In this document: positions 14,158-37,224 of the stretch, in pieces
How the letters are laid out: the number at the start of each line of letters is the position of its first letter
Position numbering within the stretch: position 1 is the first letter of the stretch
Source: Streptomyces sp. NBC_01454
GTDB taxonomy: Bacteria > Actinomycetota > Actinomycetes > Streptomycetales > Streptomycetaceae
Length of the DNA: 64,000 nt
Reading direction: 5' to 3'
NCBI RefSeq assembly: GCF_036227565.1
Contig: NZ_CP109460.1
Coordinates: 4,960,001-5,024,000, forward strand
The notes under the pieces: model-generated
Seen by the model: only the letters and a program-made list of their open reading frames with translations
Databases searched by the model: none
What the model was told of the DNA's origin: nothing
Made by a program: the position numbers and the translations under genes

Positions 14158-15573
14158 CTAGCCCCCGGATCCGGCGGGGGAGCGCTCACCGGGCGGCGCC
14201 GTCGCCGGTTCCGGGAGGCGCGCGGTGTCGCGGCGGGCGACCACCCAGTAGACGACGGCCGGCACGGCGAGCCCGACGAGCCAGGAGATATCGGCGCCGC
14301 CCAGCGGCGCCACCAGCGGACCGGTGTAGAAGTGCGTGGCCAGGAAGGGGAGTTGGGCCAGCACGCCGAAGGCGTAGACGGCCAGCGCCCGGAGGTTCCA
14401 GGCACCGTAGCGGCCGCCGGGGTCGCTCAGCGCCGGGATGTCGTAGCGCTCCTTGGAGATCAGGTAGTAGTCGACCAGATTGATCGCCGACCAGGGCGTG
14501 AAGAAGGTCAGCAGGAAGAGCAGGAAGTCCTTGAAGGCCGTCAGGAACGAGTCCTTGCCCAGGAGGGCGACGGCGGTGCCGGCGGCCATGATTCCCGCGA
14601 TGTACGCGGCCCGCCCGCGCGGGGAGAGGGTGCGCTGCCCCCGGAAGCCGCTGACGCCGGTGACCAGCGACATGAAACCGCCATAGGTGTTCAGGACGTT
14701 GATGGTGAGTTTGCCGAGGGCGATGACGAAGTACAGGAGCGAGGCGGTCAGTCCGGCGCCGCCCAGGCCGACGACGTAACCGACCTCGTGCCCCACGAAC
14801 GCGGTGGGCGCCGCGGCCGCCGCCAGCGCGCCGAACGTCATCGACCACTGCGAGCCGAGCACCGTGCCGGACAGCGTCCACCAGAAGGTGGCGCGCGCCG
14901 AGGTGTGCCGCGGCAGATAGCGCGAGTAGTCGGCGACGTACGGGCCGAACGCCAGCTGCCAGGAGGCCGAGAGCGAGACGGCCAGCAGGAACACCGGCAG
15001 CCCGAAGCGGTGGTCGGCCAGCAGCGCACCGAGGTCGGCGCGCTGCAGCAGCCGGATGCCCAGGTAGACGAAGGTCAGCGCGCAGACCAGGCCGGCGATC
15101 CTGCCCAGGGCGTGGATGAGGCGGTAGCCGACGGCCGCGGCGACGGCGGTGACCGCGGCGAACAGCACGATCCCGGGCGTCTCGCCGAGGTGCGTCAGCT
15201 CGCCGACCGCCTGCCCGGCCAGCACACTGCCGCCCGCGAAGAAGCCGATGTACATCACGATGACCAGCGCCAGTGGGACGGCCGCACCGCGCACCCCGAA
15301 CTGCGCCCGCGAGGTGATCATCTGAGGGAGCCCCAGCCGCGGCCCCTGGGCGGAGTGCAGCGCCATCACCGCGCCGCCCAGGAGGTTGCCGAGCAGCAGC
15401 CCGATCAGGGACCAGCAGGCGTTCGCCCCGAAGACGACGGCCAGCGCGCCGGTGACGACGGCGGTGATCTGGAGGTTGGCGCCCAGCCAGAGCGTGAACT
15501 GGCTGACCGCGCGGCCGTGCCGTTCGCCGTCCGGAACGACGTCGATGGAGTGCTGTTCGACCACACCTGCCAT
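14158..15573 (-). CDS. NCS1-family permease (nucleobase/allantoin/hydantoin/urocanate type)
   Basis: 471-residue transporter with about 12 membrane helices, belonging to the nucleobase:cation symporter-1 family. Features include SQFTLWLGANLQITAVVTGA at the N-terminus, TSRAQFGVRGA after helix 2, and FFTPWSAINLVDYYLISKER near helix 10, a family signature. NCS1 substrates include cytosine, allantoin and hydantoins, and a urocanate transporter of this family is, to my knowledge, known in Pseudomonas. The ATG at 15573 has GAGG seven bases upstream. Its promoter shares a motif with the betaine-type importer (23.2 kb) and hutU (31.7 kb), so an imidazole-type substrate is my preferred inference. Confidence 0.82.
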   Translation of the reverse strand: MAGVVEQHSIDVVPDGERHGRAVSQFTLWLGANLQITAVVTGALAVVFGANACWSLIGLLLGNLLGGAVMALHSAQGPRLGLPQMITSRAQFGVRGAAVPLALVIVMYIGFFAGGSVLAGQAVGELTHLGETPGIVLFAAVTAVAAAVGYRLIHALGRIAGLVCALTFVYLGIRLLQRADLGALLADHRFGLPVFLLAVSLSASWQLAFGPYVADYSRYLPRHTSARATFWWTLSGTVLGSQWSMTFGALAAAAAPTAFVGHEVGYVVGLGGAGLTASLLYFVIALGKLTINVLNTYGGFMSLVTGVSGFRGQRTLSPRGRAAYIAGIMAAGTAVALLGKDSFLTAFKDFLLFLLTFFTPWSAINLVDYYLISKERYDIPALSDPGGRYGAWNLRALAVYAFGVLAQLPFLATHFYTGPLVAPLGGADISWLVGLAVPAVVYWVVARRDTARLPEPATAPPGERSPAGSGG

Positions 15574-15595
15574 GGATCCGCCTCGCGTCGCGCGC

Positions 15596-15643
15596 CTGTA
15601 TGGATTCATGCAGGATCGATGGCGGTGAATGGAAGGTCAATAG
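15596..15643 (-). promoter_or_regulatory. Promoter and shared motif of the NCS1 permease
   Basis: Read on the minus strand: TATTGACC (-35 TTGACC), then CCATTCACCGCCATCGATC, then an inverted repeat whose plus-strand arms are CTGTAT (15596-15601) and ATGCAG (15608-15613). The ATTCACCG-CATC-AT part closely matches the hutU promoter. The order TCAATAGGTGG, GTGAATRG and CTGYAT-N6-ATGCAG matches the region upstream of the ABC importer at 23173-23220. This looks like one operator family. Confidence 0.55.
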
Positions 15644-15667
15644 GTGGGGGCGGTCGAAAGGCCGGCG

Positions 15668-15693
15668 GCCGGCCCCGGCGGACCGGGGCCGGC
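15668..15693 (-). terminator. Terminator of the cysteine dioxygenase operon
   Basis: A perfect 11-base stem (GCCGGCCCCGG and complement) with a CGGA loop lies 26 bases past the stop of the minus-strand cysteine dioxygenase gene. Confidence 0.75.
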
Positions 15694-15718
15694 GGACCGG
15701 ACGGGCCGTCAGGCGGCG

Positions 15719-16276
15719 CTAAGCCGCACGTGCCCCGTCCATCGGCCGCAGCTCGTCCGCGTACGAGACCGAGACCCGCCGCATCAGCCCGTCGTCGGTG
15801 ATGTCGTACTGGCCCAGGCGCCACAGCGGCGGCGAATAGGCGTGCACGGACACCGCGTCGTCGGTCGCGCCGGTGAGGCGGTGGATGTGCTCGGGGCCGA
15901 AGCAGAACGAGGCGCCCGCGCCGACGGCGGTGGCCAGGTGCTCGCCGCCGATCCGGGGGTTGGACTCGGTCAGCATGCCCTGGACGACGCCCACCGCCCC
16001 CGAGGACAGATCGTGGTCGTGCCAGCCGGTGTCGTTCTGCCGGGTCCAGCACAGCAGCCAGACGTCGACGAACTCATCGCGGTACAGGGAGGCGTAGTGG
16101 CGTTCGGTGTCGGAGAAGGCGACCTGCTCGCGCCACAGGTCCGGGCGGGCGGCGAGCGTGTCGACCAGCTCCCGCAGCTCACGTTTGTCGAGGTTGCGCT
16201 CGGGCAGTGCGGTGAACGGCTGCGCGCCGTCGGGGACCTCGCGGGCGGCATCGGCCTGGGAGGTGCGGTACGTCAT
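15719..16276 (-). CDS. Cysteine dioxygenase family (cupin)
   Basis: 185-residue cupin related to cysteine dioxygenase, which oxidises cysteine (or a related thiol) to its sulfinate. The iron-binding histidines are visible: TGWHDHDLSSG supplies His86 and His88 and FGPEHIHRL supplies a third (about residue 130-132). The length matches bacterial enzymes, which lack the Cys-Tyr crosslink of the animal form. The ATG at 16276 has AAAGGAG seven bases upstream and overlaps the stop of the amidohydrolase gene by four bases, so the two are coupled. With the LacI operator upstream, this is probably an inducible two-gene operon. The substrate could instead be 3-mercaptopropionate. Confidence 0.85.
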   Translation of the reverse strand: MTYRTSQADAAREVPDGAQPFTALPERNLDKRELRELVDTLAARPDLWREQVAFSDTERHYASLYRDEFVDVWLLCWTRQNDTGWHDHDLSSGAVGVVQGMLTESNPRIGGEHLATAVGAGASFCFGPEHIHRLTGATDDAVSVHAYSPPLWRLGQYDITDDGLMRRVSVSYADELRPMDGARAA

Positions 16277-17187
16277 CGGCGGGCTCCTTTCGTCGGGCCC
16301 AGAAGGCGGGCCGGGTTGGTGGTGCGCAGGGCGTGGATCGCGGCCCGCGCGCCGAGGTCGGGGAGGACGGGGGCGGCGTAGGGCCGGTCGCTGCCGCTGA
16401 CGACGACATCGATCCCGGCGGTCCGGACGAGGGCGTCGACCGCACGGGTCCCGTAGGAGGACGTCTCGTAGAAGACGCCGCAGTCGACCCGCCCGCGCTC
16501 CCGTCCGCCGCCGCGGGCGACCAGCCGCTCCCCGTGCAGCGGTGCCAGACCGGCCAGCGCCGCGAAGCAGACCCGCAGGTCCGGGTGGCGCGGCCGGCCG
16601 ACGGCGCGGAAGGCGAACCAGGCGGCGTGCAGCTGCTGGACGTACGGGACCAGGGCGGGCCACCAGGCGGGTGCGTCCGGGGTGCGCGGGGCCGCCCCGG
16701 GGTGGACGAACAGCGGCTTGTCCAGTGCGTCGGCGGCGTCCAGCAGCGGGGCGCAGCGGGCCCAGCCCGCGGCGTCGAGCAGCGCGGTGGCCGGGAGTTG
16801 CAGCCCCACGCAGCCGCGCGCCAGCTCGTGCCGCAGCGCCCCGGGGTCCGGGGCGGGCGTCGAGAGGCAGACCGAGGCCCAGACGCCGAAGGGGGCCGGC
16901 AGGTCCAGGGCGCCGTCGTGGAACGCGGCCAGCAGCGGGGCGGCCTCCGCGGGCGGCAGATCTTCGATGCCGAGCGGGCTGGAGAGCGACACCAGGGCCA
17001 GATCGAGGCCGTCGGCGCGGGCGAGCCGGGCGCGGGCGGCGATGTCGTGGTCGGCGGGGTCGACGGTGTACGGCGCCTCGCCGGGCAGGTGGAGCGTCCA
17101 GCCGTCGAGCCGCGGGGGCGCACTGCGGGCCCGCAGCAGCGCGAGGAACTCGGGCGGCCAGAGGTGCTGGTGGACATCGGTGGGCAC
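16273..17187 (-). CDS. Amidohydrolase-family (TIM-barrel) protein
   Basis: 304 residues of the amidohydrolase-2 type. The N-terminal metal motif is TDVHQHLWP (His6 and His8), a barrel histidine is seen in KPLFVHPGA near residue 158, and an Asp is offered in VVSGSDRPYAAP near residue 270. Relatives include decarboxylases and lactone hydrolases, so the reaction is uncertain. The GTG at 17187 has GGGAGG three bases upstream. It is the first gene of the operon with the cysteine dioxygenase and is divergent from the LacI-type regulator, across an AT-rich operator-like sequence. A role in breakdown of a sulfur-containing or acyl compound is possible. Confidence 0.78.
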   Translation of the reverse strand: MPTDVHQHLWPPEFLALLRARSAPPRLDGWTLHLPGEAPYTVDPADHDIAARARLARADGLDLALVSLSSPLGIEDLPPAEAAPLLAAFHDGALDLPAPFGVWASVCLSTPAPDPGALRHELARGCVGLQLPATALLDAAGWARCAPLLDAADALDKPLFVHPGAAPRTPDAPAWWPALVPYVQQLHAAWFAFRAVGRPRHPDLRVCFAALAGLAPLHGERLVARGGGRERGRVDCGVFYETSSYGTRAVDALVRTAGIDVVVSGSDRPYAAPVLPDLGARAAIHALRTTNPARLLGPTKGARR

Positions 17188-17261
17188 GGGCCTCCCTCGG
17201 CTGCGGGCGATGGTCCGGAGCGGCCCCGGGCGGCGGCTCCGCCGTCCCGGGCGCGCGGTAC

Positions 17262-17299
17262 TTAACCGCTTAACTGATGCGTTTAAGTGAAACGGTTAA
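17262..17299. promoter_or_regulatory. LacI-type operator between divergent genes
   Basis: An AT-rich island in otherwise GC-rich DNA carries TTAACCG at 17262-17268 and CGGTTAA at 17293-17299 as outer arms, with CTTAA (17269-17273) and TTTAAG inside. Nested palindromes with central CG steps suit LacI/GalR-family repressors. It lies about 75 bases before the amidohydrolase start and about 105 before the regulator start, so one site could control both. Confidence 0.65.
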
Positions 17300-17404
17300 C
17301 AGAGGGCGCTGTCAAGGCCGGGGCGCACCCGCCGGGCGACGGTCTTGCCCGCGCACCCCCGCATCGGGGCGGCCGCCGCCTCCTCCTTGGGTAGGCTTCC
17401 GGGC

Positions 17405-18448
17405 ATGGCCAGGCCCAATAAGCGCACCACCCTCCGCGAGGTGGCCGAGGCCACCGGACTCTCCACCGCAGCCGTCTCCTACGCCCTGCGCGGCAAGCAC
17501 GTCTCCAAGGAGACCGAGGAGCGGGTGCGCAAGGCCGCCGCGGAGCTCGGCTACGAGGCGGACCCGATCGCCCGTGCGCTGGTCAGCGGCAGGACGAGCA
17601 CGGTCGGCGTGCTCGCCGGCGATCTGCAGGATCTGTGGCAGCAGCAGCTGATGGCGGCCATAGGGCGCGAGCTGCTGGCCGGCGACCGCTATGCGCTGAT
17701 CCTGGACGCCGGCGGCGACCCCGAGCGCGAGCTGTCCCTCGCCAAGCAGCTGCGCGACCAGCGGGTGGACGGCCTCCTGGTCTCCCCGGTCGACCCGTCC
17801 GCCGAGGGCTGGTCGAAGATCGCCGACGCCGTGCCGGTGGTCTCCATCGGCGACGCCCTGAGCCGGGCCCGCACGGCGGGCGAGGTGCTCTTCGACAACC
17901 GTGCCGGCATCGACGCCGTCCTGGACTACCTCCGCGGTCTGGGCCACCGCCGGATCACCGTGCTGACGCCCACCGGCCCCTCCACCCCCGACCGCCCGGC
18001 CGACGTCTATGTGCGCGAGGCCGCCGACCGGCTCGGCATCGAGGTCGAAGTCCTGCCCTGCGCCCAGGAGTTGGGCGAGGCGACCGCGATGGCCCGCCGG
18101 GTCCTGACCAACAGCCCGGACGGCCGCCCGGCCGGGACCTCGGCACTCACCGCGCCCACCGCCGTCTTCTGCTTCTCCGACTCCATCGCCTACGGCGTCT
18201 ACGCGGCCGCCGCCGAGGCCGCCCTGACCGTCGGCCGCGACCTCTCCGTCGTCGGCTTCGACGACCACCCCGTCTCCCGGGTCCTCACCCCGCCGCTGAC
18301 CACCGTCGACTGGGGCCTGGGCGAGATCGCCAAGGAGGCCGCCCGGCTCGCGGTCGCCGCGATCGAGGGCCGCCGGGTCCGCCGCAAGCGCATCCTGTGC
18401 GCCCCGCGCCTCTCGGAGCGGGGGTCGGCGGGGGAGGTGCGGGGGTAG
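17405..18448 (+). CDS. LacI-family transcriptional regulator
   Basis: 347 residues. The N-terminal helix-turn-helix reads TTLREVAEATGLSTAAVSYAL (about residues 8-28) and is followed by the hinge helix region (DPIARALVSGRTSTVGVL). The rest is a periplasmic-binding-protein-like sensor with two lobes ending VGFDDHPVSRVLTPPLTTVD, a family signature. The start at 17405 lies seven bases after TAGGCT and lacks a ribosome site, so it may be leaderless. It probably represses the divergent amidohydrolase/cysteine dioxygenase operon through the palindromes at 17262-17299, and itself. The effector is unknown. Confidence 0.9.
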   Translation: MARPNKRTTLREVAEATGLSTAAVSYALRGKHVSKETEERVRKAAAELGYEADPIARALVSGRTSTVGVLAGDLQDLWQQQLMAAIGRELLAGDRYALILDAGGDPERELSLAKQLRDQRVDGLLVSPVDPSAEGWSKIADAVPVVSIGDALSRARTAGEVLFDNRAGIDAVLDYLRGLGHRRITVLTPTGPSTPDRPADVYVREAADRLGIEVEVLPCAQELGEATAMARRVLTNSPDGRPAGTSALTAPTAVFCFSDSIAYGVYAAAAEAALTVGRDLSVVGFDDHPVSRVLTPPLTTVDWGLGEIAKEAARLAVAAIEGRRVRRKRILCAPRLSERGSAGEVRG

Positions 18449-18603
18449 GCACGGGAGGCGCGGCGGGCGTGTGCGGTCCGCCGGGCGGGCCCGTCCTGCG
18501 GCTGCGTGGCCCCGCGCCGGGGAGCAGACTGGTGCCGGGTGCTCCGGTACGGTCGGGGCGTGTGGGGCGGTGGCCGACCGACAGGCGGATGGACGGGTTC
18601 TTG

Positions 18604-19635: not shown

Positions 19636-19656
19636 GGCGTGCGGCCGCCGCCCGCC

Positions 19657-20583
19657 TCAGCCCAGCTTGTGCTTCTTCAGCCAGGCGGCCGCCACCCGGT
19701 CCGGGTCCTGCTTCTCCTTGTCGACCAGGCGGTTGAGCTCGGTGAGGTCGGGCGTGGTCAGGGCGTTGCCCAGCCGGGCGAGGGCCTTGCGGACCCTGGC
19801 GTCGGCCTTGCGGGCGGCGATCAGCGGGACGATGTGCTGGGCGGGGATCAGATGCTTGGGGTCCGCCAGCAGCACCCAGCCGTTCTCCGCGGTGTCGACA
19901 TCGGTGGTGAAGACGTTGGCGATGTCGATGTCGCCCTTCTTCAGGGCGCCCTTGACCAGCGGACCGGACGAGTCCAGCGCCTTGAACTCCTTGAACTCCA
20001 CGCCGTATTGGTCCTTCAGGCCGACGAGCCCGACGACCCGCTTCTTCATCTCCGCGGCCGCGCCGAAGATCAGCTTGCCGTTGACCTTGCGGAGATCGTC
20101 GAGCGTCTTCAGGCCGTAGCGGTCGGCGGTCCGCCGGGTCACGGCGAAGCTGTCCCGGTCCTCGGCGGACGCGTACGGAAGGACCTCCAGGCCGTCGGGC
20201 AGCACGGTGGTCAGCGCGTTCTGCATCGCGCCGGCCTCGGTCGCGGTGGCCTTCTTGTCGAGGTAGAGCAGCAGGCTGCCCTGGTACTCGGGGAGCAGAT
20301 CGATATCGCCGGAGCGCAGCGCCGGGACCACGATCTCGCGGGAGCCGAGGTTGGGCCGGACCGTCGTCTTGACCCCGGCGGCGTTCAGCACCCCCGCGTA
20401 GAGGTAGCCGAGGACCTGGTTCTCGGTGAAGTTGGCGGTGCCGATGACCAGTCCGCCACCGCTGCTGCCGCCGTCGCCGCCGGCGCCGTCCCCCTTGAGG
20501 GAGGTGATGCCGGAGGAGCAGGCGGCCAGCAGCGGGGCCGAGGCGCCGGCCAGGAGGGTGGTCAGGACGGTACGACGGTTCAT
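19657..20583 (-). CDS. Betaine-type ABC transporter substrate-binding lipoprotein (OpuCC/OsmF-like)
   Basis: 308 residues. A Tat-like twin-arginine start (MNRRTVLTT) and the lipobox LLAAC (Cys22) mark a lipoprotein. The mature part is a type II binding protein for quaternary amines: VIGTANFTENQVLGYLYAGV, GDIDLLPEYQGSLL and GDIDIANVFTTDVDT are typical of OpuCC/ProX/OsmF relatives. It captures the substrate outside the cell and delivers it to the two permeases. The ATG at 20583 has GAGGAG seven bases upstream. It is the last of four genes in the operon. Glycine betaine or choline would be the default substrate; the nearby histidine-lyase homologue raises the option of a histidine-derived betaine. 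Confidence 0.88.
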   Translation of the reverse strand: MNRRTVLTTLLAGASAPLLAACSSGITSLKGDGAGGDGGSSGGGLVIGTANFTENQVLGYLYAGVLNAAGVKTTVRPNLGSREIVVPALRSGDIDLLPEYQGSLLLYLDKKATATEAGAMQNALTTVLPDGLEVLPYASAEDRDSFAVTRRTADRYGLKTLDDLRKVNGKLIFGAAAEMKKRVVGLVGLKDQYGVEFKEFKALDSSGPLVKGALKKGDIDIANVFTTDVDTAENGWVLLADPKHLIPAQHIVPLIAARKADARVRKALARLGNALTTPDLTELNRLVDKEKQDPDRVAAAWLKKHKLG

Positions 20584-20627
20584 GGGCGGGCTCCTCGGTG
20601 CGTACGTGGGGGCGGGGCGGCGGATGC

Positions 20628-21299
20628 TCAGCGGGCGGCGGCCGGGCGGCCGCGGAACAGCAGCCGCGTCAGGCCGCCCAGGGCCAGATCGGCGACGACG
20701 GCGAGCGCGGCGACCAGCACCGCCCCGCCGAGGACCTGCACCAGGTCGCGCTGCGCCAGGCCGTCGAAGACATAGCGGCCCAGCCCGCCGAAGCTGACGT
20801 AGGCGGCGATCGTGGCGGTGGCGACGACCTGCACGGTCGCCAGCCGCACACCGGTCATGATCAGCGGCAGCGCGAGCGGGATCTCGACCTGCCACAGGAT
20901 CTGGCGGCCGCGCAGCCCCACGCCCTTGGCGGCGTCCTTGACCTCGGGGTCGACGGCCGCCATCCCCGCGTAGGTATTGGTGATGATCACCGGCACGGCG
21001 AGCGCGACCAGGGACACGTACACCGGCCACACGCTCAGTCCGCCGGCCAGGAAGACCAGCGTGACCAGGCCGACGGTGGGCAGCGCCCGGCCGAAGGAGG
21101 CGAGGTTGACGGCGAGGAAGGCGCCACGGCCGGTGTGCCCGATGAGCAGCCCCACCGGCAGCGCGATCAGGGCCGCGGCGAGGGTGGCGAGCACCGAATA
21201 TTCCAGGTGCTCCAGGATGCGGGTGGCGATGCCCTCGGGGCCGGACCACTGGGCGGAACTGGTCAGCCAGGCGGCGAGGTTCTTCAGGAGTTCGAGCAT
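20628..21299 (-). CDS. ABC transporter permease (OpuCD/ProW-like)
   Basis: 223 residues with about six membrane helices. The cytoplasmic EAA-type coupling loop includes MAAVDPEVKDAAKGVGLRG, followed by QILWQVEIPLALPLIMTGVR, which is characteristic of quaternary amine permeases. It lies seven bases after the partner permease gene and 44 bases before the binding-protein gene. Both permeases have the same architecture, as in OpuB/OpuC systems that use a heterodimer. Confidence 0.88.
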   Translation of the reverse strand: MLELLKNLAAWLTSSAQWSGPEGIATRILEHLEYSVLATLAAALIALPVGLLIGHTGRGAFLAVNLASFGRALPTVGLVTLVFLAGGLSVWPVYVSLVALAVPVIITNTYAGMAAVDPEVKDAAKGVGLRGRQILWQVEIPLALPLIMTGVRLATVQVVATATIAAYVSFGGLGRYVFDGLAQRDLVQVLGGAVLVAALAVVADLALGGLTRLLFRGRPAAAR

Positions 21300-21306
21300 C
21301 GGGGCG

Positions 21307-21981
21307 TCACGCTCGCTTCCGCAGCTTGGGACGACGCGGCCCGGAGGTGCCGCGCAGCCAGGGGGTGCACAGCCACTGGACGGTCACCAGCACCGCGTCG
21401 GCGACCAGGGCGAGCAGCAGGGTCAGGGCCACCCCGGCGATGACCGGGGTGGGGAAGTTGCGCTGGAAGCCGTCGGTGAAGAGCTGGCCGAGGCCGCCGT
21501 ATCCGATGTAACTCGCCACGCTGACCAGGGAGATGGACATGACGGTGGCGACCCGCACGCCCGCCATGATCACCGGGAGGGCGAGCGGCAGCTCGACGGT
21601 GAGCAGGGTGCGCAGCGGCGTGGTCCCCATCGCCTGGGAGGCCTCCCGGGCCCGGGCCGGGACCGCGTCCAGCCCCTCGACGGTGTTCCGTACCAGTACC
21701 ACCAAGGTGTACGCGGTCAGGCCGGTGATCGCGGTGGTCCGGGTCAGCCCGGTGACCGGCAGCAGGAGGACGAAGAAGGCGAGGGAGGGGATGGTGTAGA
21801 GGATGTTGGACGCGCCGAGCACGAAGCCGCGCAGCGGCCGTACGCGGTGCGCGAGGACCGCCAGCGGCAGCGCGATCAGCAGGCCGAAGAGGACGGCGGG
21901 CACGGCGGTGGCGAGGTGGTCCGCGGTGAGGCGGGCCATCTCGCCGGTGTGGTCGGGGAACCAGCCCCACTCGATGGTCAT
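21307..21981 (-). CDS. ABC transporter permease (OpuCB/ProW-like)
   Basis: 224 residues, about six membrane helices, with the coupling-loop sequence REASQAMGTTPLRTLLTVEL ahead of PLALPVIMAGVRVATVMSI. Its ATG overlaps the stop of the ATPase gene by four bases (ATGA), so expression is coupled. It pairs with the permease encoded next, forming the membrane channel of a betaine-type importer. An early segment, TRTTAITGLTAYTLVVLVRN, is also family-typical. Confidence 0.88.
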   Translation of the reverse strand: MTIEWGWFPDHTGEMARLTADHLATAVPAVLFGLLIALPLAVLAHRVRPLRGFVLGASNILYTIPSLAFFVLLLPVTGLTRTTAITGLTAYTLVVLVRNTVEGLDAVPARAREASQAMGTTPLRTLLTVELPLALPVIMAGVRVATVMSISLVSVASYIGYGGLGQLFTDGFQRNFPTPVIAGVALTLLLALVADAVLVTVQWLCTPWLRGTSGPRRPKLRKRA

Positions 21982-23153
21982 GCGGGGCGCTCCGCGGCGT
22001 CCTCGGCCGGGCGGGGCGCGGCGTCCTCGGGGGGCCGTTCGCCGGCGGCCGTCGCCCGGCCGGCCTCCGCATGGCTGCGGCCGGCCCGTTCGTGGATGGC
22101 GTCGCGGGAGGTGAGGCCCCTCAGCACGCCGTCGGCGGTGACCCGGGCGACGGCGCCGGCGGGGGAGGAGACCGCCTCGTTGAGCGCGGAGAGCAGGGAG
22201 TCGGTGTCGCGCAGCGGCCGGACGGCCTCCAGGGGGGCCTCGCCGGCCGTGCCGCCGGAGGGCAGGGCGTCGGTGTCCAGCCAGCCCAGCGGTTCGCGGC
22301 GCGGGGAGGTCACCAGGCGCCAGCGGTCCCCGTCGCGGGGTATGCCGCCGACCGGTTCGTCCGTGCGTATCTCCCCGCCGGGCGCGTGGGGGACGTCCGC
22401 GAGGTCGGTGAGCGAGAGCAGCTTGAGGCCGCGCTCGGCGCCCAGGAAGCCGGCGACGAAGTCATCGGCGGGGCGCGCGAGCAGCTCGGCGGGCTCCGCG
22501 CACTGGACGAGCCGGCCGCCGGAGCGGAAGACCGCGATCCGGTCGCCCAGGCGGACCGCCTCGTCGATGTCGTGGGTGACGAAGACGACGGTCTTGCGCA
22601 GCTCCTCCTGGAGCCGCAGCAGCTCGTTCTGCAGCTGGGTGCGCACCACGGGGTCGACGGCGCCGAACGGCTCGTCCATCAGCAGCACCGGCGGGTCGGC
22701 GGCGAGCGCGCGGGCCACGCCGACGCGCTGCTGCTGGCCGCCGGAGAGCTGGTGCGGATAGCGCTTGCCGGCGTCGGCGGGCAGGCCGACCAGCTCCAGC
22801 AGCTCGCCGGCGCGGGCGCGGGCCTTGCGCCGGCCCCAGCCCAGCAGCAGCGGGACGGTCGCGATGTTGTCCAGGATCGTACGGTGAGGGAAGAGGCCGG
22901 ACTGCTGGATGACATAGCCGATGCCGCGGCGCAGCTCGGCGGCGTCCGTCTCCAGGATGTCGCGGCCGCCGACGCTGATGGTGCCGGAGGTCGGCTCCAC
23001 CATGCGGTTGACCATCCGCAGGGTGGTCGTCTTGCCGCACCCCGAGGATCCGACGAGGACGGTGACGCCGCCTTCGGGGAGGTCAAGGGACAGCTCGTCC
23101 ACGGCGGTCGTGCCGTTCGGGTATCGCTTGCTGACTGCGTCGAACTTGATCAT
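21978..23153 (-). CDS. Betaine-type ABC transporter ATP-binding protein with CBS region (OpuCA-like)
   Basis: 391 residues. Walker A is GSSGCGKTTT (Lys41), the signature is LSGGQQQR near residue 137, and Walker B is PPVLLMDEPFGAVD. After the ATPase core, residues about 245-360 form a CBS-like regulatory region (LRDTDSLLSALNEAVSSPAG and GVLRGLTSRDAIHE), which in OpuA/OpuC systems senses ionic strength or nucleotides. The C-terminal 30 residues are low complexity. The ATG at 23153 (MIKFDAVSKRYPNG) is chosen over an upstream in-frame start. It is the first gene of the operon and divergent from the lyase gene. The upstream region carries the motif shared with hutU and the NCS1 permease. Confidence 0.9.
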   Translation of the reverse strand: MIKFDAVSKRYPNGTTAVDELSLDLPEGGVTVLVGSSGCGKTTTLRMVNRMVEPTSGTISVGGRDILETDAAELRRGIGYVIQQSGLFPHRTILDNIATVPLLLGWGRRKARARAGELLELVGLPADAGKRYPHQLSGGQQQRVGVARALAADPPVLLMDEPFGAVDPVVRTQLQNELLRLQEELRKTVVFVTHDIDEAVRLGDRIAVFRSGGRLVQCAEPAELLARPADDFVAGFLGAERGLKLLSLTDLADVPHAPGGEIRTDEPVGGIPRDGDRWRLVTSPRREPLGWLDTDALPSGGTAGEAPLEAVRPLRDTDSLLSALNEAVSSPAGAVARVTADGVLRGLTSRDAIHERAGRSHAEAGRATAAGERPPEDAAPRPAEDAAERPA

Positions 23154-23172: not shown

Positions 23173-23220
23173 CTGCATATGGTCATGCAGAGTCTTAGGC
23201 ACGTGAATAGAAGTCAATAG
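23173..23220 (-). promoter_or_regulatory. Promoter and shared motif of the betaine-type importer operon
   Basis: Minus strand: CTATTGACT supplies a -35 TTGACT, followed by CTATTCACGTG, then TAAGAC as a possible -10. The plus-strand view shows GTGAATAG (23203) and TCAATAG (23214). An inverted repeat CTGCAT (23173-23178)/ATGCAG (23185-23190) follows toward the gene. The same elements in the same order occur before the NCS1 permease, and GTGAATAG recurs at the hutU promoter. The site lies in the 173-bp divergent gap with the lyase gene. Confidence 0.6.
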
Positions 23221-24832: not shown

Positions 24833-24999
24833 GCGCCACGGCGGGCGGCGGGCCGCTTCCGGCCGGGTGGCCGGGATCGGGGCCGGGGCCCCGGGTACGG
24901 CCGGATCCCGACGCCTGTCCCGGACCGGAGCGGGCCGGGAATTCCGTACAGTCGGTCGACACAGGACAAGGCCCCCGACCGGGCCGGGAAGAAGAGGCG

Positions 25000-26777: not shown

Positions 26778-28112
26778 CTACTGCCTGCCCAGGTCGTGCA
26801 GTGACTCCGCGTGGGCGCCGCCGCTCTCCGCGGTGAGTTCCTCCAGTGTTTGCGGGGTGCGGACGGTGGCGAAGCGGACGGTGCCGTCCGGCTCCGCCGC
26901 ATAGCCGTAAATCCCGGGGCGGGGGAGGGAGTTGTAGGCGAAGTGGGTGGAGAAGTAGTACGCGCCGGTGTCCAGGAGGGCGGCATGGTCGCCGGACTCC
27001 AGGAGGGGGAGCGGCCGGTTCTCGGCGACCAGATCACCCGCGAAGCAGCACGGTCCCGCGACGTCCTGTGCCACCGGAGCACCCGTCTTGGGCCGGCCCT
27101 CGGCGTCGTAGGCCGCGACCCGGATCGGCCAGGACTCGGGGACGAAGGCCGTACGGGTGGCGACCTGGGCACCGGCATGGGTGACCGCGATCGGCCGGCC
27201 GCCCGCCGACTTGGCGTACTCGACGCGGGCGAGGACCGTACCGTGCTTGGCCAGCAGCGAGCGGCCGAACTCGGTGACCAGCCCATAGCGTCCGGACAGC
27301 AGGCCGGGCACGGTGGCGTGGAGCTGTGCGACGTACTCGCGGTAGGTCGGGGTGACGGCGTCCGAGGAGAAGTTGACCGGCAGGCCGCCGCCGATGTCGA
27401 GGGTGTCGACCTGACGCCGGCCGGCCCTCTCGTTGATCTCCTCGGCGAGGACGTACAGGGCCCGGACACCCGCGGTCATCAGCTCCATCGGCATGCCCTG
27501 GGAACCGACATGGGCATGCAGCCGGGTCAGCCACGGGCGGGCGAGGAAGGCGCGAACGACCCACTCCCGGGCGCCCTCGTCCCGCAGCCCGACACCGAAC
27601 TTGGAGGTGTCGGTGGCGGTGCTCATCGCCCCGATGCTGCCGCCGCCGATCTGGGGGTTGACCCGCAGACCGAGGGGGGCGCCGCTCGGCGCGGAGGCCA
27701 TCAGGGAGTCGATACGGGCCAGTTCCTCGGGGTTGTCCGCGTTGACGGCGATCCCGAGGGCCAGCGCCTCCCGCAGCTCGGCGCGGGTCTTGGCCGGCGA
27801 GTCCAGGACCGTCCGCGCCACGGGCACACCGGCGGCACGGGTCAGCGCCAGCTCACCGGGGCTGGCCACCTCACACCCGAGGCCCTCCTGCGCCAGCACC
27901 CGCAGGACCGGTACGAGCGAGGCGGCCTTCACCGCGAAGGCGTGCAGCACCGGGGTACCGGGGGCCGTGAACTCTTCGAAGGCGGCCCGCAGCTCGGCCG
28001 CCGACCGCCGGATCCCGGCGATATCGAGCAGCCCGGCAACGGGCTCCCCGGGCCCCACCAGTCCCTGTGCAATGGCGGCCCGTACGGCCCGGTCTCGGTC
28101 CGTGAAGTTCAT
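26778..28112 (-). CDS. PLP-dependent decarboxylase, fold III (diaminopimelate/ornithine decarboxylase-like)
   Basis: 444 residues. The N-terminal alanine-racemase-like barrel has the PLP lysine in LHAFAVKAA (Lys62), the phosphate-binding loop TLDIGGGLPVNF and the glutamate segment VTEFGRSLLAKHG. The C-terminal beta domain has CCFAGDLVAENRPLP, matching the Cys-X3-Asp site of DAP and ornithine decarboxylases, and GAYYFSTHFAYN. The real lysA is normally linked to thrA/thrC elsewhere in Streptomyces, and the sequence is divergent, so I infer a side-pathway decarboxylase or racemase for a basic or diamino acid. The ATG at 28112 has only a weak ribosome site. Confidence 0.8.
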   Translation of the reverse strand: MNFTDRDRAVRAAIAQGLVGPGEPVAGLLDIAGIRRSAAELRAAFEEFTAPGTPVLHAFAVKAASLVPVLRVLAQEGLGCEVASPGELALTRAAGVPVARTVLDSPAKTRAELREALALGIAVNADNPEELARIDSLMASAPSGAPLGLRVNPQIGGGSIGAMSTATDTSKFGVGLRDEGAREWVVRAFLARPWLTRLHAHVGSQGMPMELMTAGVRALYVLAEEINERAGRRQVDTLDIGGGLPVNFSSDAVTPTYREYVAQLHATVPGLLSGRYGLVTEFGRSLLAKHGTVLARVEYAKSAGGRPIAVTHAGAQVATRTAFVPESWPIRVAAYDAEGRPKTGAPVAQDVAGPCCFAGDLVAENRPLPLLESGDHAALLDTGAYYFSTHFAYNSLPRPGIYGYAAEPDGTVRFATVRTPQTLEELTAESGGAHAESLHDLGRQ

Positions 28113-30671: not shown

Positions 30672-31054
30672 CGGCCCGCCTCCGCGCGCTGTTGCTGGTC
30701 CTGTGTCCCTGAGGCCGGCGCCGCGGCGGACTCCGTCGCCGCAGTGGTGTCCGCTGCCGGTCCCGCGCCCTCGACGATGGCCCGGAGTGCGGCCACATGT
30801 CCCTCGAAGGCGGTGCGGCCGCGGCTGGTCAGCCGGACCTTGGTGCGCCGTTTGCGGCCGGCGCCCTCCTTGTGGAGCTCCAGATATCCGGCCTCTCCCA
30901 GGGTGTGCAGTTGCTTGGACAGTGCGGAGTCGCTGAGCGAGAGGCTGTCGCGGATGAAGGAGAAGTCGGCCCACTCCGTGGCGGCGAGAAGGGCCACCAC
31001 GGACAGGCGGGTGGAGGGGTGGATCAGTTCGTCGAAGCCGCTCGGCGTGCTCAT
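30668..31054 (-). CDS. Winged-helix transcriptional regulator (HTH_34 type)
   Basis: 128 residues. The DNA-binding domain spans about residues 8-90: HPSTRLSVVALLAATEW, the recognition region LSLSDSALSKQLHTLGEAGY and the wing with RKRRTKVRLTSRGRTAFEGH. It resembles the ArsR/MarR-like HTH_34 group, often found beside ABC-2 exporters. The C-terminus is Ala/Thr/Gln-rich and disordered. It overlaps its neighbours by four bases on both sides. The double palindrome at 31594-31645 before the operon is the obvious binding site for autoregulation. Confidence 0.85.
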   Translation of the reverse strand: MSTPSGFDELIHPSTRLSVVALLAATEWADFSFIRDSLSLSDSALSKQLHTLGEAGYLELHKEGAGRKRRTKVRLTSRGRTAFEGHVAALRAIVEGAGPAADTTAATESAAAPASGTQDQQQRAEAGR

Positions 31055-31557
31055 CGGCCCACCCCTTCCTGGATGGCTCTCGTGCCGCGGTCGCGCAGTG
31101 CGCTGACCGCCCAGCGGTTCGCCGGGCCGACGAAGAGCACGAAGGCGCCGGTCGAAACGGTGGCCTGGATCAGGCTGGCGCACGGCAGTGCCAGCCGGTC
31201 GGCCACGAAGCCGGAGGCCAGGATGGTCGCGAGAGTGACCACCATGCCCGCGAAGAAGGTGGCGAACGACCGCCAGCTGTGGCGTGAGCGGTGCAGCCGG
31301 ATCCGGCTTCTGCGGTTGTGGATCACCGCGACGGTGCTCAGTACGGCGAAGTAGGCGGTCAGTACCAGCCAGAAGGCCCACATGGGCAGATCCAGGCCCG
31401 TGACGGCGAGGAACACCCACATCACGGCGGCCGTGACGTACGTCGGCCCGGCGTCGCTCCGGGCGCTTCTCTCGACCTCGTCGTAGACCCGCTCCTGCGG
31501 TACCCGGATGCGCTGCAGATCCTGCCAGGCCCGTTCGGCATCCACCGGTGTGCTCAT
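31051..31557 (-). CDS. Hypothetical membrane protein, first gene of the exporter operon
   Basis: 168 residues with four membrane helices (AAVMWVFLAVTGLDLPMWAF; WLVLTAYFAVLSTVAVI; FATFFAGMVVTLATILASGF; IQATVSTGAFVLFVGPA). The N-terminus is cytoplasmic and carries AWQDLQRIRVPQERVYDEVE. This matches the small membrane proteins that commonly precede HTH_34 regulators in actinobacteria. The ATG at 31557 is chosen because GGAGG lies eight bases upstream; the ATG at 31563 is too close to it. Its stop overlaps the regulator start (ATGA). A role as accessory subunit or signal partner is inferred only from linkage. Confidence 0.7.
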   Translation of the reverse strand: MSTPVDAERAWQDLQRIRVPQERVYDEVERSARSDAGPTYVTAAVMWVFLAVTGLDLPMWAFWLVLTAYFAVLSTVAVIHNRRSRIRLHRSRHSWRSFATFFAGMVVTLATILASGFVADRLALPCASLIQATVSTGAFVLFVGPANRWAVSALRDRGTRAIQEGVGR

Positions 31558-31593
31558 GGCCATCGCCTCCCCAAGGCGTTCATGCGTTCCCCG

Positions 31594-31645
31594 TTGACTT
31601 TCCCACCAGGAAAGTTAGCACAGACTTTCCTGGTGGGAAAGTCAA
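31594..31645 (-). promoter_or_regulatory. Double palindromic operator of the exporter operon
   Basis: A perfect 22-base inverted repeat (arms 31594-31615 and 31624-31645, spacer TAGCACAG) sits 37 bases before the operon start. Each arm is itself palindromic: ACTTTCC, five central bases, GGAAAGT. Each outer end begins TTGACTTTCC, giving a -35-like TTGACT on both strands. Two repressor dimers side by side, overlapping the promoter, are the natural reading; the HTH_34 protein in the operon is the likely ligand. Confidence 0.8.
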
Positions 31646-31705: not shown

Positions 31706-31743
31706 TTGACTAACGCTATTCACCGACATCAATATGTGAATAG
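31706..31743 (+). promoter_or_regulatory. hutU promoter with palindromic operator
   Basis: TTGACT at 31706-31711 serves as -35. CTATTCAC (31716-31723) and GTGAATAG (31736-31743) form a perfect 8-base inverted repeat with a 12-base spacer containing CAATAT as a possible -10. A bound protein would block the promoter. The left arm plus CCGACATCAAT matches the NCS1 permease promoter (CCATTCACCGCCATCGAT), and GTGAATAG recurs before the importer operon. Confidence 0.65.
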
Positions 31744-31776: not shown

Positions 31777-33441
31777 ATGTCGGGACCGCGACCCGTGCGG
31801 GCACCGCGCGGTACGGAGCTGAGTGCTCGGGGATGGCAGCAGGAAGCCGCGCTGCGCATGCTGCAGAACAACCTCGATCCGGAGGTGGCCGAACACCCGG
31901 ACCAGCTCGTCGTCTACGGCGGGACGGGCAAGGCCGCACGTGACTGGCGCTCCTTCGACGCGATGGTGCGCACGCTCACCACGCTCAAGCAGGACGAGAC
32001 GATGCTCGTCCAGTCCGGCCGGCCGGTCGGCGTGATGCAGACGCACGAGTGGGCGCCGCGGGTGCTCATCGCCAACTCCAACCTCGTCGGCGACTGGGCC
32101 AACTGGGAGGAGTTCCGCCGCCTGGAGGCCCTCGGTCTGACCATGTACGGGCAGATGACCGCCGGTTCGTGGATCTACATCGGCACCCAGGGGATCCTGC
32201 AGGGCACCTACGAGACCTTCGCGGCCGTCGCGGCGAAGAAGTTCGGCGGCACGCTGGCCGGGACGATCACGCTCACCGCCGGCCTCGGCGGCATGGGCGG
32301 CGCCCAGCCGCTCGCCGTCACCATGAACGACGGCGTCGCGATCTGCATCGACGTCGACCCGCGCGCCATCGAGCGCCGCATCGAGCACCGCTACCTGGAC
32401 GTGCGCGCGGACAGCCTCGCGCATGCGCTCCAGCTCGCCGTCGAGGCCCGTGACCAGCGCAAGCCGCTGTCCATCGGCCTGCTCGGCAACGCCGCCGAGC
32501 TGCTGCCGCAGATGCTCGCCGAGGGCGCGCCGATCGATATCGTCACCGACCAGACCAGCGCCCACGACCCGCTGGCCTACCTTCCGGTCGGCATCGACTT
32601 CGACGACATGGCCGCCTACGCCGCCGCGAAGCCCGCCGACTTCACCCAGCGGGCACGCGAGTCGATGGCCCGGCACGTCGAGGCCATGGTCGGCTTCATG
32701 GACGCCGGCGCCGAGGTCTTCGACTACGGCAACTCGATCCGCGGCGAGGCCCAACTCGCCGGATACGAGCGGGCCTTCGCCTTCCCCGGCTTCGTCCCCG
32801 CCTACATCCGCCCGCTGTTCGCCGAGGGCAAGGGGCCGTTCCGCTGGGCCGCGCTGTCCGGCGACGCCCGGGACATCGCCGCCACCGACAAGGCGATGCT
32901 GGACCTCTTCCCGGAGAACGAGTCGCTGGCCCGCTGGATCAAGCTGGCCGGTGAGCGCGTCCACTTCCAGGGCCTGCCCGCCCGCATCTGCTGGCTCGGC
33001 TACGGCGAGCGCGACAAGGCCGGCGAGCGCTTCAACGAGATGGTCGCCGACGGAACGCTCAAGGCCCCGCTGGCCATCGGCCGTGACCACCTCGACTGCG
33101 GCTCCGTCGCCTCGCCCTACCGCGAGACCGAGGCCATGAAGGACGGTTCGGACGCGATCGCCGACTGGCCGCTGCTCAACGCCATGGTCAATGTCGCCTC
33201 GGGCGCCTCCTGGGTCTCGCTGCACCACGGCGGCGGCGTCGGCATGGGCCGCTCGATCCACGCCGGCCAGGTCACCGTCGCCGACGGCACCCCGCTGGCC
33301 GGCGAGAAGATCCGCCGGGTGCTCACCAACGACCCCGGTATGGGCGTCATCCGGCATGTCGACGCGGGCTACGAGCGCGCCGACGAGGTGGCCGCCGAGC
33401 GCGGTGTCCGCATCCCGATGCGCGAGGGCGAGGGCGCGTGA
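31777..33441 (+). CDS. hutU: Urocanate hydratase
   Basis: 554 residues, the normal length. Urocanase converts urocanate to imidazolonepropionate using tightly bound NAD as an electrophile. Recognisable stretches are [20 protein letters not shown] at the N-terminus, [40 protein letters not shown] (the NAD-binding glycine region) and [17 protein letters not shown] near the C-terminus. The ATG at 31777 has GGGAGG nine bases upstream. It is the first gene of a four-gene hut operon and is preceded by an operator-like palindrome. A canonical hutH is not in this window; the lyase at 23.3 kb has an altered active-site triad. Confidence 0.96.
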
Positions 33442-34676
33442 CCGCCTCGTTCCACGAGATGTGGGAGGAGTTGCGGCCGCTGGGCCGCGACTCCTCCTCC
33501 GGGGGCTACCGCCGCTACGCGTGGACCGGGGCCGACGCCGACTGCCGCGCGTGGTTCCGGGCCCAGGCCGAGGCCCGCGGGCTCGCCTACGAGCTGGACC
33601 GCAACGGCAACCAGTGGGCCTGGCTCGGCGCCACCGGTCACCAGGACGTGGCCCCCGGCGACGCCGTCGTCACCGGCTCCCACCTGGACTCCGTGCCGGA
33701 CGGCGGCGCCTTCGACGGCCCGCTGGGCGTCGTCTCCTCCTTCGCCGCGCTGGACGAACTCCGCCAAAGGGGAGCGGAGCTCGACAGGCCGCTGGCGATC
33801 GTCAACTTCGGCGACGAGGAGGGCGCCCGCTTCGGCCTGGCCTGCGTCGGCTCCCGGCTCGCCGCCGGGGCACTGACCACCGAGGCCGCGCACCGGCTGC
33901 GCGACGGCGACGGCATCAGCCTCCCGCAGGCCATGGAGAGCGCCGGCCACGACCCCGAAGCCATCGGGCCGGACCCCGAACGGCTCGCCAGGATCGGCGC
34001 GTTCGTCGAACTCCACGTCGAGCAGGGGCGCGCCCTGGACCTGTCCGGCGACCCGGTCGGCATCGCCTCCGCCATCTGGCCGCACGGCCGCTGGCGGTTC
34101 GACTTCCAGGGCGAGGCCAACCACGCCGGCACCACCCGCCTGGAGGACCGCCGCGACCCGATGCTCAGCTACGCCGCGACCGTGCTCGCCGCGCGGGAAC
34201 AGGCCCGGCTGGCCGGCGCCCTGGCCACCTTCGGGAAGATCAGTGTGGAGCCGAACGGGGTCAACGCCATCCCCTCGCTCGTGCGCGGCTGGCTGGACTC
34301 CCGGGCGCCCGACCAGGACACCCTGGACACCGTGATCACCGGGATCGAGCAGGCGGCCGCCGAGCGCGCCGCCCGTGACGGCGTGGACCTGACCGTCGTG
34401 CGCGAATCCTTCACCCCCGTCGTGGAGTTCCAGCACGCCCTGCGGGACGAGCTGAGCGCGATCCTCGGCAAGGGGCGGGAGCGGACCGTGCCCGTGCTGG
34501 GCACCGGCGCCGGACACGACGCCGGTATTTTGTCCGGGACCGTCCCCACCGCCATGCTGTTCGTACGCAACCCCACCGGGGTGTCGCACTCACCCGCCGA
34601 AGCGGCGGCGGAGGACGACTGCGCCGCCGGGGTCACCGCACTCGCCGACGTACTGGAGGGGCTGGCGTGCCGCTGA
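33438..34676 (+). CDS. M20-family amidohydrolase (allantoate amidohydrolase-like) in the hut operon
   Basis: 412 residues of the hydantoinase/carbamoylase branch of peptidase M20. Metal and catalytic features include [67 protein letters not shown] and the C-terminal [13 protein letters not shown]. Family members cleave allantoate, N-carbamoyl or N-formyl groups. In a hut operon next to hutF the likely substrate is N-formylglutamate or another late histidine intermediate rather than allantoate; this is inferred from context. The GTG at 33438 overlaps the hutU stop (GTGA), and the 3' end overlaps hutF by ten bases. Confidence 0.85.
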
Positions 34677-36025
34677 CGACGCAGGCCACACCGACGACCT
34701 ACTGGCTCGAACACGCCTGGCTCGACACGCACGTCGAGCCGGGCGTGGCCGTGGACGTCGCGGACGGGCGGATCACGGCCGTCCGCACCGGGGTCGACAC
34801 CCCGCCGCCCGGCGCCACCACGCTGCGCGGGCTGACCCTGCCCGGTCTCGCCAACGCCCACTCGCACGCCTTCCACCGCGCCCTGCGCGGCACCGTGCAG
34901 GTCGGCACCGGCACCTTCTGGACCTGGCGCGAGGTCATGTACAGCGTCGCCGACAAGCTCACCCCCGACACCTATTACGCCCTCGCCTGCGCCGTCTACG
35001 CCGAGATGGCGCTGGCCGGCATCACCTGCGTCGGCGAATTCCACTACCTCCACCACGCGCCCGGCGGCACCCGCTACGGCGACCCCAACGCCATGGGCGA
35101 GGCGCTGCTCGCGGCCGCCGCCGACGCCGGTATCCGCATCACCCTCCTCGACACCGCCTATCTCTCGGCCGGCTTCGGCGCCCCGCCCAACCACCACCAG
35201 CTGCGTTTCTCCGACGGCACCGCCGAGAGCTGGGCCCAGCGCGCCGACGCCCTCAAGGACGGCCACGAGCACGCCCGCATCGGCGCCGCCCTCCACTCCG
35301 TACGCGCCGTGCCCGCAGCCCAGCTCGCCACCGTCGCCGAGTGGGCCCGCGGGCGGCAGGCCCCCCTGCACGTCCACCTCTCGGAGCAGACCGCCGAGAA
35401 CGACGCCTGCCACGAGGCCCACGGCCGGACCCCCACCCAACTGCTGTCCGAGCACGGGGTGCTGGGCCCGCGGACCACGGCCGTGCACGCCACCCATCTC
35501 ACCGGCGAGGACGTCGAGCTGCTCGGCGACTCCGGCACGGGCGTGTGCATGTGCCCCACCACCGAACGCGATCTGGCCGACGGCATCGGCCCGGCCGCCC
35601 GCCTCCAGGGCCGCGGCAGCACGCTGTCCCTCGGCAGCGACAGCCATGCCGTCATCGACCTGCTCGAAGAGGCCCGCGCCATGGAGCTCGACGAACGGCT
35701 GCGCACCCGCACCCGCGGGCACTGGACGGCCGCCGCCCTGCTGCGCGCCGCGACCGCCGACGGTCATGCGGCCCTCGGCTGGGAAGACGCCGGCGCCCTG
35801 CAGGCAGGCGCGCTGGCCGACTTCACCACGATCGCACTGGACTCCGTACGCACCGCCGGGCCACTTCCCCGGCTGGGCGCCGAGACGGCGGTATTCGCCG
35901 CCTCCGCCGCGGATGTGCGACACACCATCGTCGGCGGGCGGCAGATCGTCCGCGACGGCGTGCACACTCTTCTCGCCGACGTACCCACCGCCCTGGCAGA
36001 GTCCATCGCCGCCGTACGCGGCTGA
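34667..36025 (+). CDS. hutF: Formimidoylglutamate deiminase
   Basis: 452 residues, amidohydrolase superfamily. It hydrolyses N-formimidoyl-glutamate to N-formylglutamate and ammonia. The metal motif is [15 protein letters not shown], the barrel histidines lie in [14 protein letters not shown] and [13 protein letters not shown], and the aspartate in [35 protein letters not shown] and [16 protein letters not shown] are typical of HutF. The GTG at 34667 follows GGAGG at a good distance and lies inside the end of the M20 gene. HutI starts 17 bases after its stop. The HutF route implies the five-step histidine pathway, which releases formate. Confidence 0.93.
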
Positions 36026-36042
36026 AGGAGAACACCCCCGCG

Positions 36043-37224
36043 ATGACGACGACCTCCGCGCCGACCACCGCCCTCACCCACATCGCCCAGCTGGTCACCA
36101 ACGACCCCTCCCTCGGTGAAGGCCCCCTCGGTCTGATCCAGGACGCGGCGGTCGTCATCGACGGCGACCGCATCGCCTGGGTCGGTGCTTCCAGCAAAGC
36201 ACCCGCCACTGACAACGCCGTCGACGCCGCCGGCCGGGCCGCCGTCCCCGGCTTCGTCGACTCCCACTCCCACCTGGTCTTCGCCGGCGACCGCACCGCG
36301 GAGTTCAACGCCCGGATGTCCGGCCGCCCTTACTCCGCCGGCGGCATCCGCACCACCGTCGCCGCCACCCGCGCCGCCTCCGACGAGGCCTTGCACGCCA
36401 ACGTGGCCCGCTATCTCGCCGAGGCGCTCCGCCAGGGCACCACCACCCAGGAGACCAAGTCCGGCTACGGCCTGACCGTCGAGGACGAGGCCCGCGCCCT
36501 GCGCATCGCCGCCGCGCACACCGACGAGGTCACCTTCCTCGGTGCCCACATCGTGTCGCCCGACTACGCCGACGACCCGGCCGGCTACGTCGACCTCGTC
36601 ACGGGCCCGATGCTGGACGCCTGTGCCCCGCACGCCCGCTGGGTCGACGTCTTCTGCGAGAAGGGCGCCTTCGACGGCGACCAGGCCCGTGCCGTCCTCA
36701 CCGCGGGCAAGGCCAAGGGGCTGGTGCCGCGGGTGCACGCCAACCAGCTCGGCCACGGCCCCGGCGTCCAGCTCGCCGTCGAAGTCGGCGCGGCCTCCGC
36801 GGACCACTGCACCCACCTCAGCGCCGCCGACATCGACGCCCTCGCCCAGTCCGAGACGGTCGCCACCCTGCTCCCCGGCGCCGAGTTCTCCACCCGCGCC
36901 CGGTGGCCCGACGCCCGCCCGCTGCTCGACGCGGGCGCCACCGTCGCGCTGTCCACGGACTGCAACCCCGGCTCGTCCTTCACGAGTTCGATGCCGTTCT
37001 GCATCGCGCTCGCCGTCCGTGACATGGGGATGACCCCCGACGAGGCGGTGTGGGCGGCGACCGCGGGCGGCGCCCGTGCCCTGCGCCGTACGGACATCGG
37101 CCGGATCGCCCCCGGCGCCCGCGCCGACCTGGCCCTGCTGGACGCGCCCTCGCACGTCCACCTCGCCTACCGGCCGGGCGTCCCGCTCGTCTCGGCCGTG
37201 TGGCACAAGGGCGTCCTCGTCTGA
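36043..37224 (+). CDS. hutI: Imidazolonepropionase
   Basis: 393 residues, amidohydrolase superfamily; it opens the ring of imidazolone-5-propionate to give formimidoylglutamate. The metal site is [14 protein letters not shown], followed by [14 protein letters not shown], a HutI hallmark, the histidine in [25 protein letters not shown], and the aspartate segment [17 protein letters not shown]. The ATG at 36043 has AAGGAG 12 bases upstream. It is the last gene of the hut operon, closed by a strong hairpin. In pathway order it acts between HutU and HutF. Confidence 0.95.

Follow-up and report, generated by a model that had tools for sequence, protein, structure and literature searches.

Within a 64,000-nucleotide stretch of Streptomyces sp. 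NBC_01454 (contig NZ_CP109460.1, positions 4,960,001 to 5,024,000; hereafter the window), a homologue of histidine ammonia-lyase (HAL) is encoded between a complete ABC importer and genes of the histidine utilisation (hut) pathway. All genes named in an initial annotation of the window were found where it had placed them. The importer is encoded on the minus strand by a single operon (19657-23153), comprising an OpuAC-type lipoprotein substrate-binding protein (SBP; 19657-20583; PF04069, 175.8 bits), two ProW/ChoW-like permeases (20628-21299 and 21307-21981) and a ProV-type ATPase (21978-23153; TIGR01186, 303 bits, below the curated cut-off of 326.6), a composition that places it in the OpuC/ProU family. 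Divergent from this operon, as annotated, is the plus-strand gene for the 501-residue lyase (23327-24832, TTG start at 23327; PF00221, 364.5 bits), followed on the same strand by an RpiR-type regulator (24829-25950; HTH_6; start uncertain). The distance from the lyase end to hutU is 6.9 kb, in agreement with the approximately 7 kb first proposed, and here four plus-strand genes follow one another: hutU, encoding urocanate hydratase (31777-33441; TIGR01228, 899 bits against a cut-off of 375), an M20 amidohydrolase (33438-34676; NF006770, 659 bits, cut-off 372), hutF, encoding formimidoylglutamate deiminase (34667-36025; NF006681, 705 bits, cut-off 362), and hutI, encoding imidazolonepropionase (36022-37224; TIGR01224, 364 bits, cut-off 298). 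On the far side of the importer lies an NCS1-family permease gene (14158-15573, minus strand; PF02133, Pfam 191 bits).

The lyase was initially described as carrying a non-canonical triad at the site where HAL enzymes form their 4-methylideneimidazol-5-one (MIO) cofactor. This proved correct but understated: the region is one residue short (GAVG-TGD, as compared to SLGCSGD in the histidase of the same genome), so that MIO cannot form, and the same one-residue deletion is found in ergothionase (6s7j). Only two PF00221 genes were detected in the 9.46-Mb genome, the window lyase and C1:3018044 (616 bits), the latter being a canonical histidase, hutH, with Cys-Ser-Gly at the triad and located 2 Mb away from the window genes. 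Against the curated hutH model the window lyase scores 278.5 bits, far under the cut-off of 539.15, which together with the triad deletion rules out an ordinary second histidase. What it shares with HutH is the fold, the hut linkage and the active-site framework: the equivalents of HAL Tyr53, His83, Tyr280, Arg283, Phe329 and Glu414 do not vary among 17 near lyases, nor do those of Tyr53, Arg283 and Glu414 across all 43 rows of a larger alignment. The deletion is accompanied by GVGxN(R/K) and by SxNA at the position of HAL Asn195; loss of this Asn is not universal among triad-deleted rows, as L291 and the Rhizobium leguminosarum protein of L332 retain it.

A HAL fold without MIO is also what characterises ergothionase, which was among the best fold matches of the window lyase. 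Ergothionase-like chemistry, as first suggested, is thus plausible, but the lyase does not belong to the characterised ergothionase clade: in both trees made the two form separate clades, with support of 98/88 and 100/100 in the later tree. These trees are unrooted and contain no phenylalanine or tyrosine ammonia-lyase rows, and so show separate branches of deletion types and not which state is older; the triad alignment and the first tree omit six loci with no usable frame (L286, L290 and L292-L295), and the later tree omits L194_HALx, which has a very long branch. Identity to the ergothionase of Treponema denticola (6s7j, 6s7q) is 24%; that enzyme has Glu in EGD where the window lyase has Thr in TGD, and the position of HAL Tyr280 is Leu in ergothionase and Tyr in the window lyase. 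Two closer relatives of the T. denticola enzyme (35.7% and 38.9%) were seen on Sinorhizobium pSymA (L333) and a Polaromonas plasmid (L334), where they are annotated as histidine and aromatic amino acid ammonia-lyase. A further clade has a shortened triad (ASD/AAD; L227, L297, L298 and L299); in the stretch L227:1902-9044, its member lies between an OpuC importer with a cyclodeaminase-like gene and an amidohydrolase-2-like (AH2) gene.

The neighbouring HutU is by score an ordinary urocanate hydratase, and falls under the cut-offs of two thiourocanate-hydratase models (690 against 880 bits and 653.5 against 930 bits). This renders ergothioneine less likely as the substrate, and makes urocanate the simplest product and hercynine (histidine betaine) the simplest substrate. 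By our own chemical argument, a leaving group superior to ammonia would be required for elimination without MIO; the known example is trimethylamine, released by ergothionase (PMC13405746).

A promoter motif common to the importer, the NCS1 permease and hutU had been proposed, and this is real: the operator-like pattern [CT]ATTCA-N12..15-TG[AC]AT occurs in the window at exactly these three places. At hutU a TTGAC element and the operator TATTCA-N14-TGAAT, a perfect inverted repeat, span 31706-31741 (plus strand); the importer operator TATTCA-N14-TGCAT lies at 23185-23209 (minus strand), with TTGAC at 23213-23217, and that of the NCS1 gene, CATTCA-N13-TGCAT, at 15608-15631 (minus strand). The NCS1 open reading frame extends to 15609, and a start at 15573 or below suits this operator better. 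Genome-wide, TTGACN{3,7}TATTCA was found three times, two of them at the importer and hutU (reversed control, 0), and ATTCAN{13,14}TGMAT at eight distinct sites (12 rows; reversed control, 2 rows). Four of these eight are NCS1, the importer, hutU and the distant hutH; at the remaining four, no adjoining gene was recognised as hut-related.

Across all upstream regions of the fetched loci, the operator was present at hutU in 81/81, at the importer in 83/85 and at NCS1 in 18/46, and was absent before RpiR (0/46), M20 (0/76) and lyase genes (0/110). Counts on distinct upstream regions, for which alone duplicate genomes were removed, were 76/76, 77/79 and 17/44 for the first three, with none before RpiR (0/44) or M20 (0/71). 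Read backwards, the pattern was found in 1/79 importer upstreams and in none of the other sets, and Markov shuffles contained it in 0/1520 (hutU), 0/1580 (importer) and 1/880 (RpiR) cases. Upstreams of the gene at 26778 also score (44/70 distinct), we think due to the intergenic region this gene shares with hutU. The operator is also present at the canonical hutH and upstream of 13 of 16 further hutH genes from Streptomyces. Having the operator common to hutU and hutH, the importer and NCS1 genes can be assigned to the predicted Streptomyces hut regulon. Among 26 named loci holding both, NCS1 follows the SBP gene on the same strand by 0-142 bp in 21, and these are the same 21 whose NCS1 gene has no operator of its own; this suggests that NCS1 is there part of the importer operon.

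In 12 Streptomyces genomes devoid of the lyase, the operator was present at the hutU end in 11 and an RpiR gene upstream of hutU in 10. The regulator that follows the lyase in the window is therefore probably a general hut regulator, and the idea that it is specific to the lyase is weakened. It is presumably the protein that binds the operator, and the importer and lyase would then have been added in front of it. Operator and RpiR together define a candidate regulon for histidine use in Streptomyces.

The initial annotation had proposed a trimethylammonium importer, of which the family stands, the importer being complete, and the ligand class is weakened. The AlphaFold model of the SBP (predicted local distance difference test score 87.3) had the EgtU-ergothioneine complex 7txl as its best Foldseek match, and among solved structures the ergothioneine-binding domain EgtUC (about 27% identity) comes nearest in both sequence and fold, closely followed by ProX and OpuC types. 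With these it shares the OpuAC fold, the ProV-type ATPase, two permeases and the equivalents of Glu375 and Arg379. At the ligand-cage positions of EgtU named in PMC9732360, the window SBP has Tyr293, Asp341, Phe419 and Gln443, an aromatic residue at only two of four positions, such that the trimethylammonium label is unproven; further pocket positions are Asp339, Ala337, Ala242 and Phe244. As compared to the EgtU/OpuC/ProX group, Tyr341 is replaced by Asp, Tyr443 by Gln, Lys242 by Ala and Gly244 by Phe. Within 29 aligned lyase-linked SBPs, position 339 is Asp in 22/27 and 337 is Ala in 27/27 readable rows. The genome encodes two further SBPs (L278 and L279) that retain tyrosines at 341 and 443. 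Glu375 and Arg379 were also considered as a sign of an imidazole ligand, an idea we dropped as the cage-type SBPs of the same genome retain both.

According to a hand-made list, near relatives of the lyase were present in 73 of 199 Streptomyces genomes. For the 65 genomes of this near lineage with a listed hutU position (8 genomes and the other lineages being left out), hutU lies within 25 kb of the lyase in 52, far away on the same contig in 3 and on another contig in 10. The 62 full-length named lyase loci hold the ATPase in 48, the SBP in 50, RpiR in 58 and hutU in 53 cases, and importer, RpiR and hutU all together in 40. Lyases with 52-58% identity form a second lineage within Streptomyces (L053, L054 and L063-L067), in which an SBP gene immediately precedes that of the lyase and the DNA fetched contains no hut gene. 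At E<=1e-58 the lyase was detected in 31 of 394 genomes of the class, in 12 of 137 genera; among the 15 of 16 loci outside Streptomyces that we examined (G495 being left out), the importer adjoins the lyase in 11 and hut genes are present in 5.

A parallel set exists in Proteobacteria. On a Klebsiella plasmid (NZ_CP138728.1; L335), the order is hutI, NCS1, hutU, ABC ATPase, two permeases, OpuAC SBP, lyase, hutD, hutC and hutF, the ATPase being unlisted in the annotation and read from its open reading frame. The record has a single HAL-family place (search with the window lyase, E<=1e-5), whose product reads GSVG---YLIAT, with the whole triad of three residues deleted. Among 120 homologues listed, which include Pseudomonas, Burkholderia and Rhizobium proteins, 117 have this deletion and the other three are incomplete at that position. 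In the later tree these proteins cluster with the MIO-forming histidases at 100/100 support and apart from the TGD lyases, indicating that the two types of deletion arose separately. Like the window, the Klebsiella locus combines an NCS1 permease, a MIO-less lyase and an OpuAC SBP whose pocket is altered in the same way, with the same letters as the Streptomyces SBP at 293, 337, 339, 341 and 443 and Leu at 419; unlike the window, its lyase belongs to another clade and hutC takes the place of rpiR. Of 179 plasmid records with a lyase of this type at E<=1e-100, 162 are from Klebsiella. According to PMC8871633, Pseudomonas fluorescens SBW25 carries a hutTu, hutXWV and hutH1 insertion, and hutH1 is dispensable for growth on histidine. 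As described there, this insertion resembles both the Klebsiella locus and the window in placing an extra permease, an ABC importer and an extra histidase homologue within hut, and by analogy its HutH1 may belong to the MIO-less family. On a Neorhizobium plasmid (L339), hutC, opuA-BD-BD-C and a MIO-less lyase are followed by coenzyme A (CoA)-type genes, namely an acyl-CoA transferase, a 3-hydroxybutyryl-CoA dehydrogenase and an enoyl-CoA hydratase, and the SBP has the same Ala-x-Asp-x-Asp motif.

Taken together, this analysis suggests that the importer, the lyase and often the NCS1 permease form an accessory branch of the Streptomyces hut regulon for uptake and elimination, with hercynine as the favoured substrate, a reading to which we assign a probability of roughly one half on the basis of sequence comparison. 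That some MIO-independent elimination feeds hut appears somewhat more probable. The OpuC-type importer, in many species together with the NCS1 permease, would bring in a histidine derivative under the hutU/hutH operator, and the MIO-less HAL-fold lyase would eliminate its alpha-nitrogen group as ergothionase does, releasing an acrylate. This acrylate, most likely urocanate, would be hydrated by the ordinary HutU and degraded via HutI, HutF and the M20 hydrolase. On chemical grounds hercynine would fit best as the substrate, giving urocanate and trimethylamine; in view of the tyrosine-poor pocket, a histidine that is dimethylated or modified in another way is also conceivable. We infer the direction of transport, the elimination chemistry and the substrate. 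The initial annotation had the lyase act on hercynine, ergothioneine or a similar betaine, with the product entering HutU; the chemistry is plausible and the hut link is borne out by operator and synteny, whereas ergothioneine has lost ground and the altered SBP cage fits this claim poorly.

Several observations weigh against hercynine uptake and its link to hut. The four-aromatic trimethylammonium cage of EgtU/ProX type is absent from the window SBP, and this is the rule among lyase-linked SBPs, where Asp occupies position 341 in 26 of 27 readable rows, and Gln or Glu position 443 in 28 of 29. The importer is of a consistent family and would not be a textbook trimethylammonium binder, which we regard as the chief evidence against a betaine substrate. 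No operator was found before the lyase gene itself (0/103 distinct upstreams), and the operator was present in just one (L194, where it lies between importer and lyase) of nine other-genus loci and in neither of two second-lineage Streptomyces loci scanned. The importer is missing from 12 of the 62 full-length named loci, six of which have NCS1, and from 4 of the 15 other-genus loci, and no hut gene was present in the fetched DNA of 10 of these 15. No trimethylamine-using gene was recognised among the window genes examined. The CoA-type neighbours of the Neorhizobium relative suggest that some relatives may form a product other than urocanate, and Pseudomonas HutXWV is reported to take part in histidine uptake (PMC8871633).

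The last point leads to a possible but unlikely explanation, in which the importer takes up histidine like HutXWV, with no betaine required, and the MIO-less lyase, having another substrate or little part to play, is simply carried along with it. An Asp in place of the cage tyrosines would suit a protonated amine, and the operator shared by importer, hutH and hutU also fits this. Nevertheless, lyase and importer genes have stayed together in two lineages of Streptomyces and outside the genus, in several cases with no hut gene in the fetched DNA; the active-site residues of the lyase are conserved, and lyases of separate branches, with two different triad deletions, have similar partners. Quite unlikely is an elimination from another aromatic amino-acid derivative, such as an aromatic betaine, with the shared operator reflecting nitrogen scavenging in place of urocanate formation. 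The HutH1-type relative of Neorhizobium, with its transferase, dehydrogenase and hydratase genes, and the MFS-type carriers that, as we read the sequences, adjoin some lyases are in its favour; the conserved His83 and Glu414 equivalents argue against it, as does the fact that such lyases are linked to hut in Klebsiella and several actinomycete families.

We consider it very unlikely that the lyase is an ergothionase, by which imported ergothioneine would be split to thiourocanate and trimethylamine, and a cysteine-dioxygenase-type (CDO) enzyme could desulfurise where present. The separate clades, the HutU scores under both thiourocanate-hydratase cut-offs and the loss of EgtU specificity residues from the SBP all oppose this, 67 of 80 named lyase loci have no CDO-type gene, and egt genes were found adjacent in just one genus. 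A lyase without catalytic function, persisting as a relic or serving as a regulator, as loss of the triad and of the Asn195 equivalent might suggest, is highly improbable given its conservation across many species with invariant Tyr53, Arg283 and Glu414 equivalents, and given that ergothionase is described in PMC13405746 as MIO-less yet cleaving ergothioneine.

Returning to elimination from a histidine betaine, the actinomycete and proteobacterial sets may, tentatively, represent an undescribed second entrance to histidine catabolism that apparently arose more than once, in which a MIO-less histidase homologue and an altered-pocket OpuC-type importer, often with NCS1, would convert hercynine or another N-methylated histidine to urocanate and a methylamine. 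Such an entrance would explain why Pseudomonas HutH1 is dispensable for growth on histidine and would give it a candidate role. If true, many genes now labelled histidine ammonia-lyase or aromatic amino acid ammonia-lyase would encode MIO-independent enzymes for another substrate, the transporter family would gain a new ligand class, and bacteria would gain a route releasing methylamines from histidine betaines. These compounds are known from fungi and actinobacteria. In line with the initial annotation, which knew of no such set in Streptomyces, we found no description of one, nor of a hercynine lyase, in searches of open-licence papers, which is weak evidence of novelty.

Between the NCS1 permease and the importer, the window holds three optional genes: a CDO-type cupin (15719-16276, minus strand; PF05995), a divergent AH2-like protein (16273-17187, minus strand) and a LacI-family regulator (17405-18448, plus strand). 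The AH2-like protein itself has no Pfam match at 1e-5, and a relative in L195 matches PF04909. The three (15719-18448) travel together and co-occur with the lyase: the trio is present in 7 of 15 other-genus loci, and AH2 and lyase are found together in 16 of 394 genomes as compared to 2.2 expected (28 hold AH2 and 31 the lyase; hand count, Fisher test, uncorrected for kinship). As a CDO-type gene is present in only 13 of 80 named Streptomyces lyase loci, the trio was dropped as a core of the set; a thiol-oxidising or desulfurising step by these proteins is conceivable. In two genomes of one genus, egtBCD lie beside the trio, lyase, importer, hutH and hutU (L181:2353-5400 and L182:12740-15819). 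EgtD was detected in 21 of 27 lyase-bearing genomes searched and, outside that genus, is not near the lyase, so this neighbourhood was set aside as general support for ergothioneine. The gene at 26778-28112 encodes a LysA-like pyridoxal phosphate-dependent decarboxylase and is present in 48 of the 62 full-length named lyase loci. Finally, an inverted repeat (GACTTTCCCACCAG ... CTGGTGGGAAAGTC) lies at 31596-31643, between the gene at 31051-31563 and the hutU promoter.

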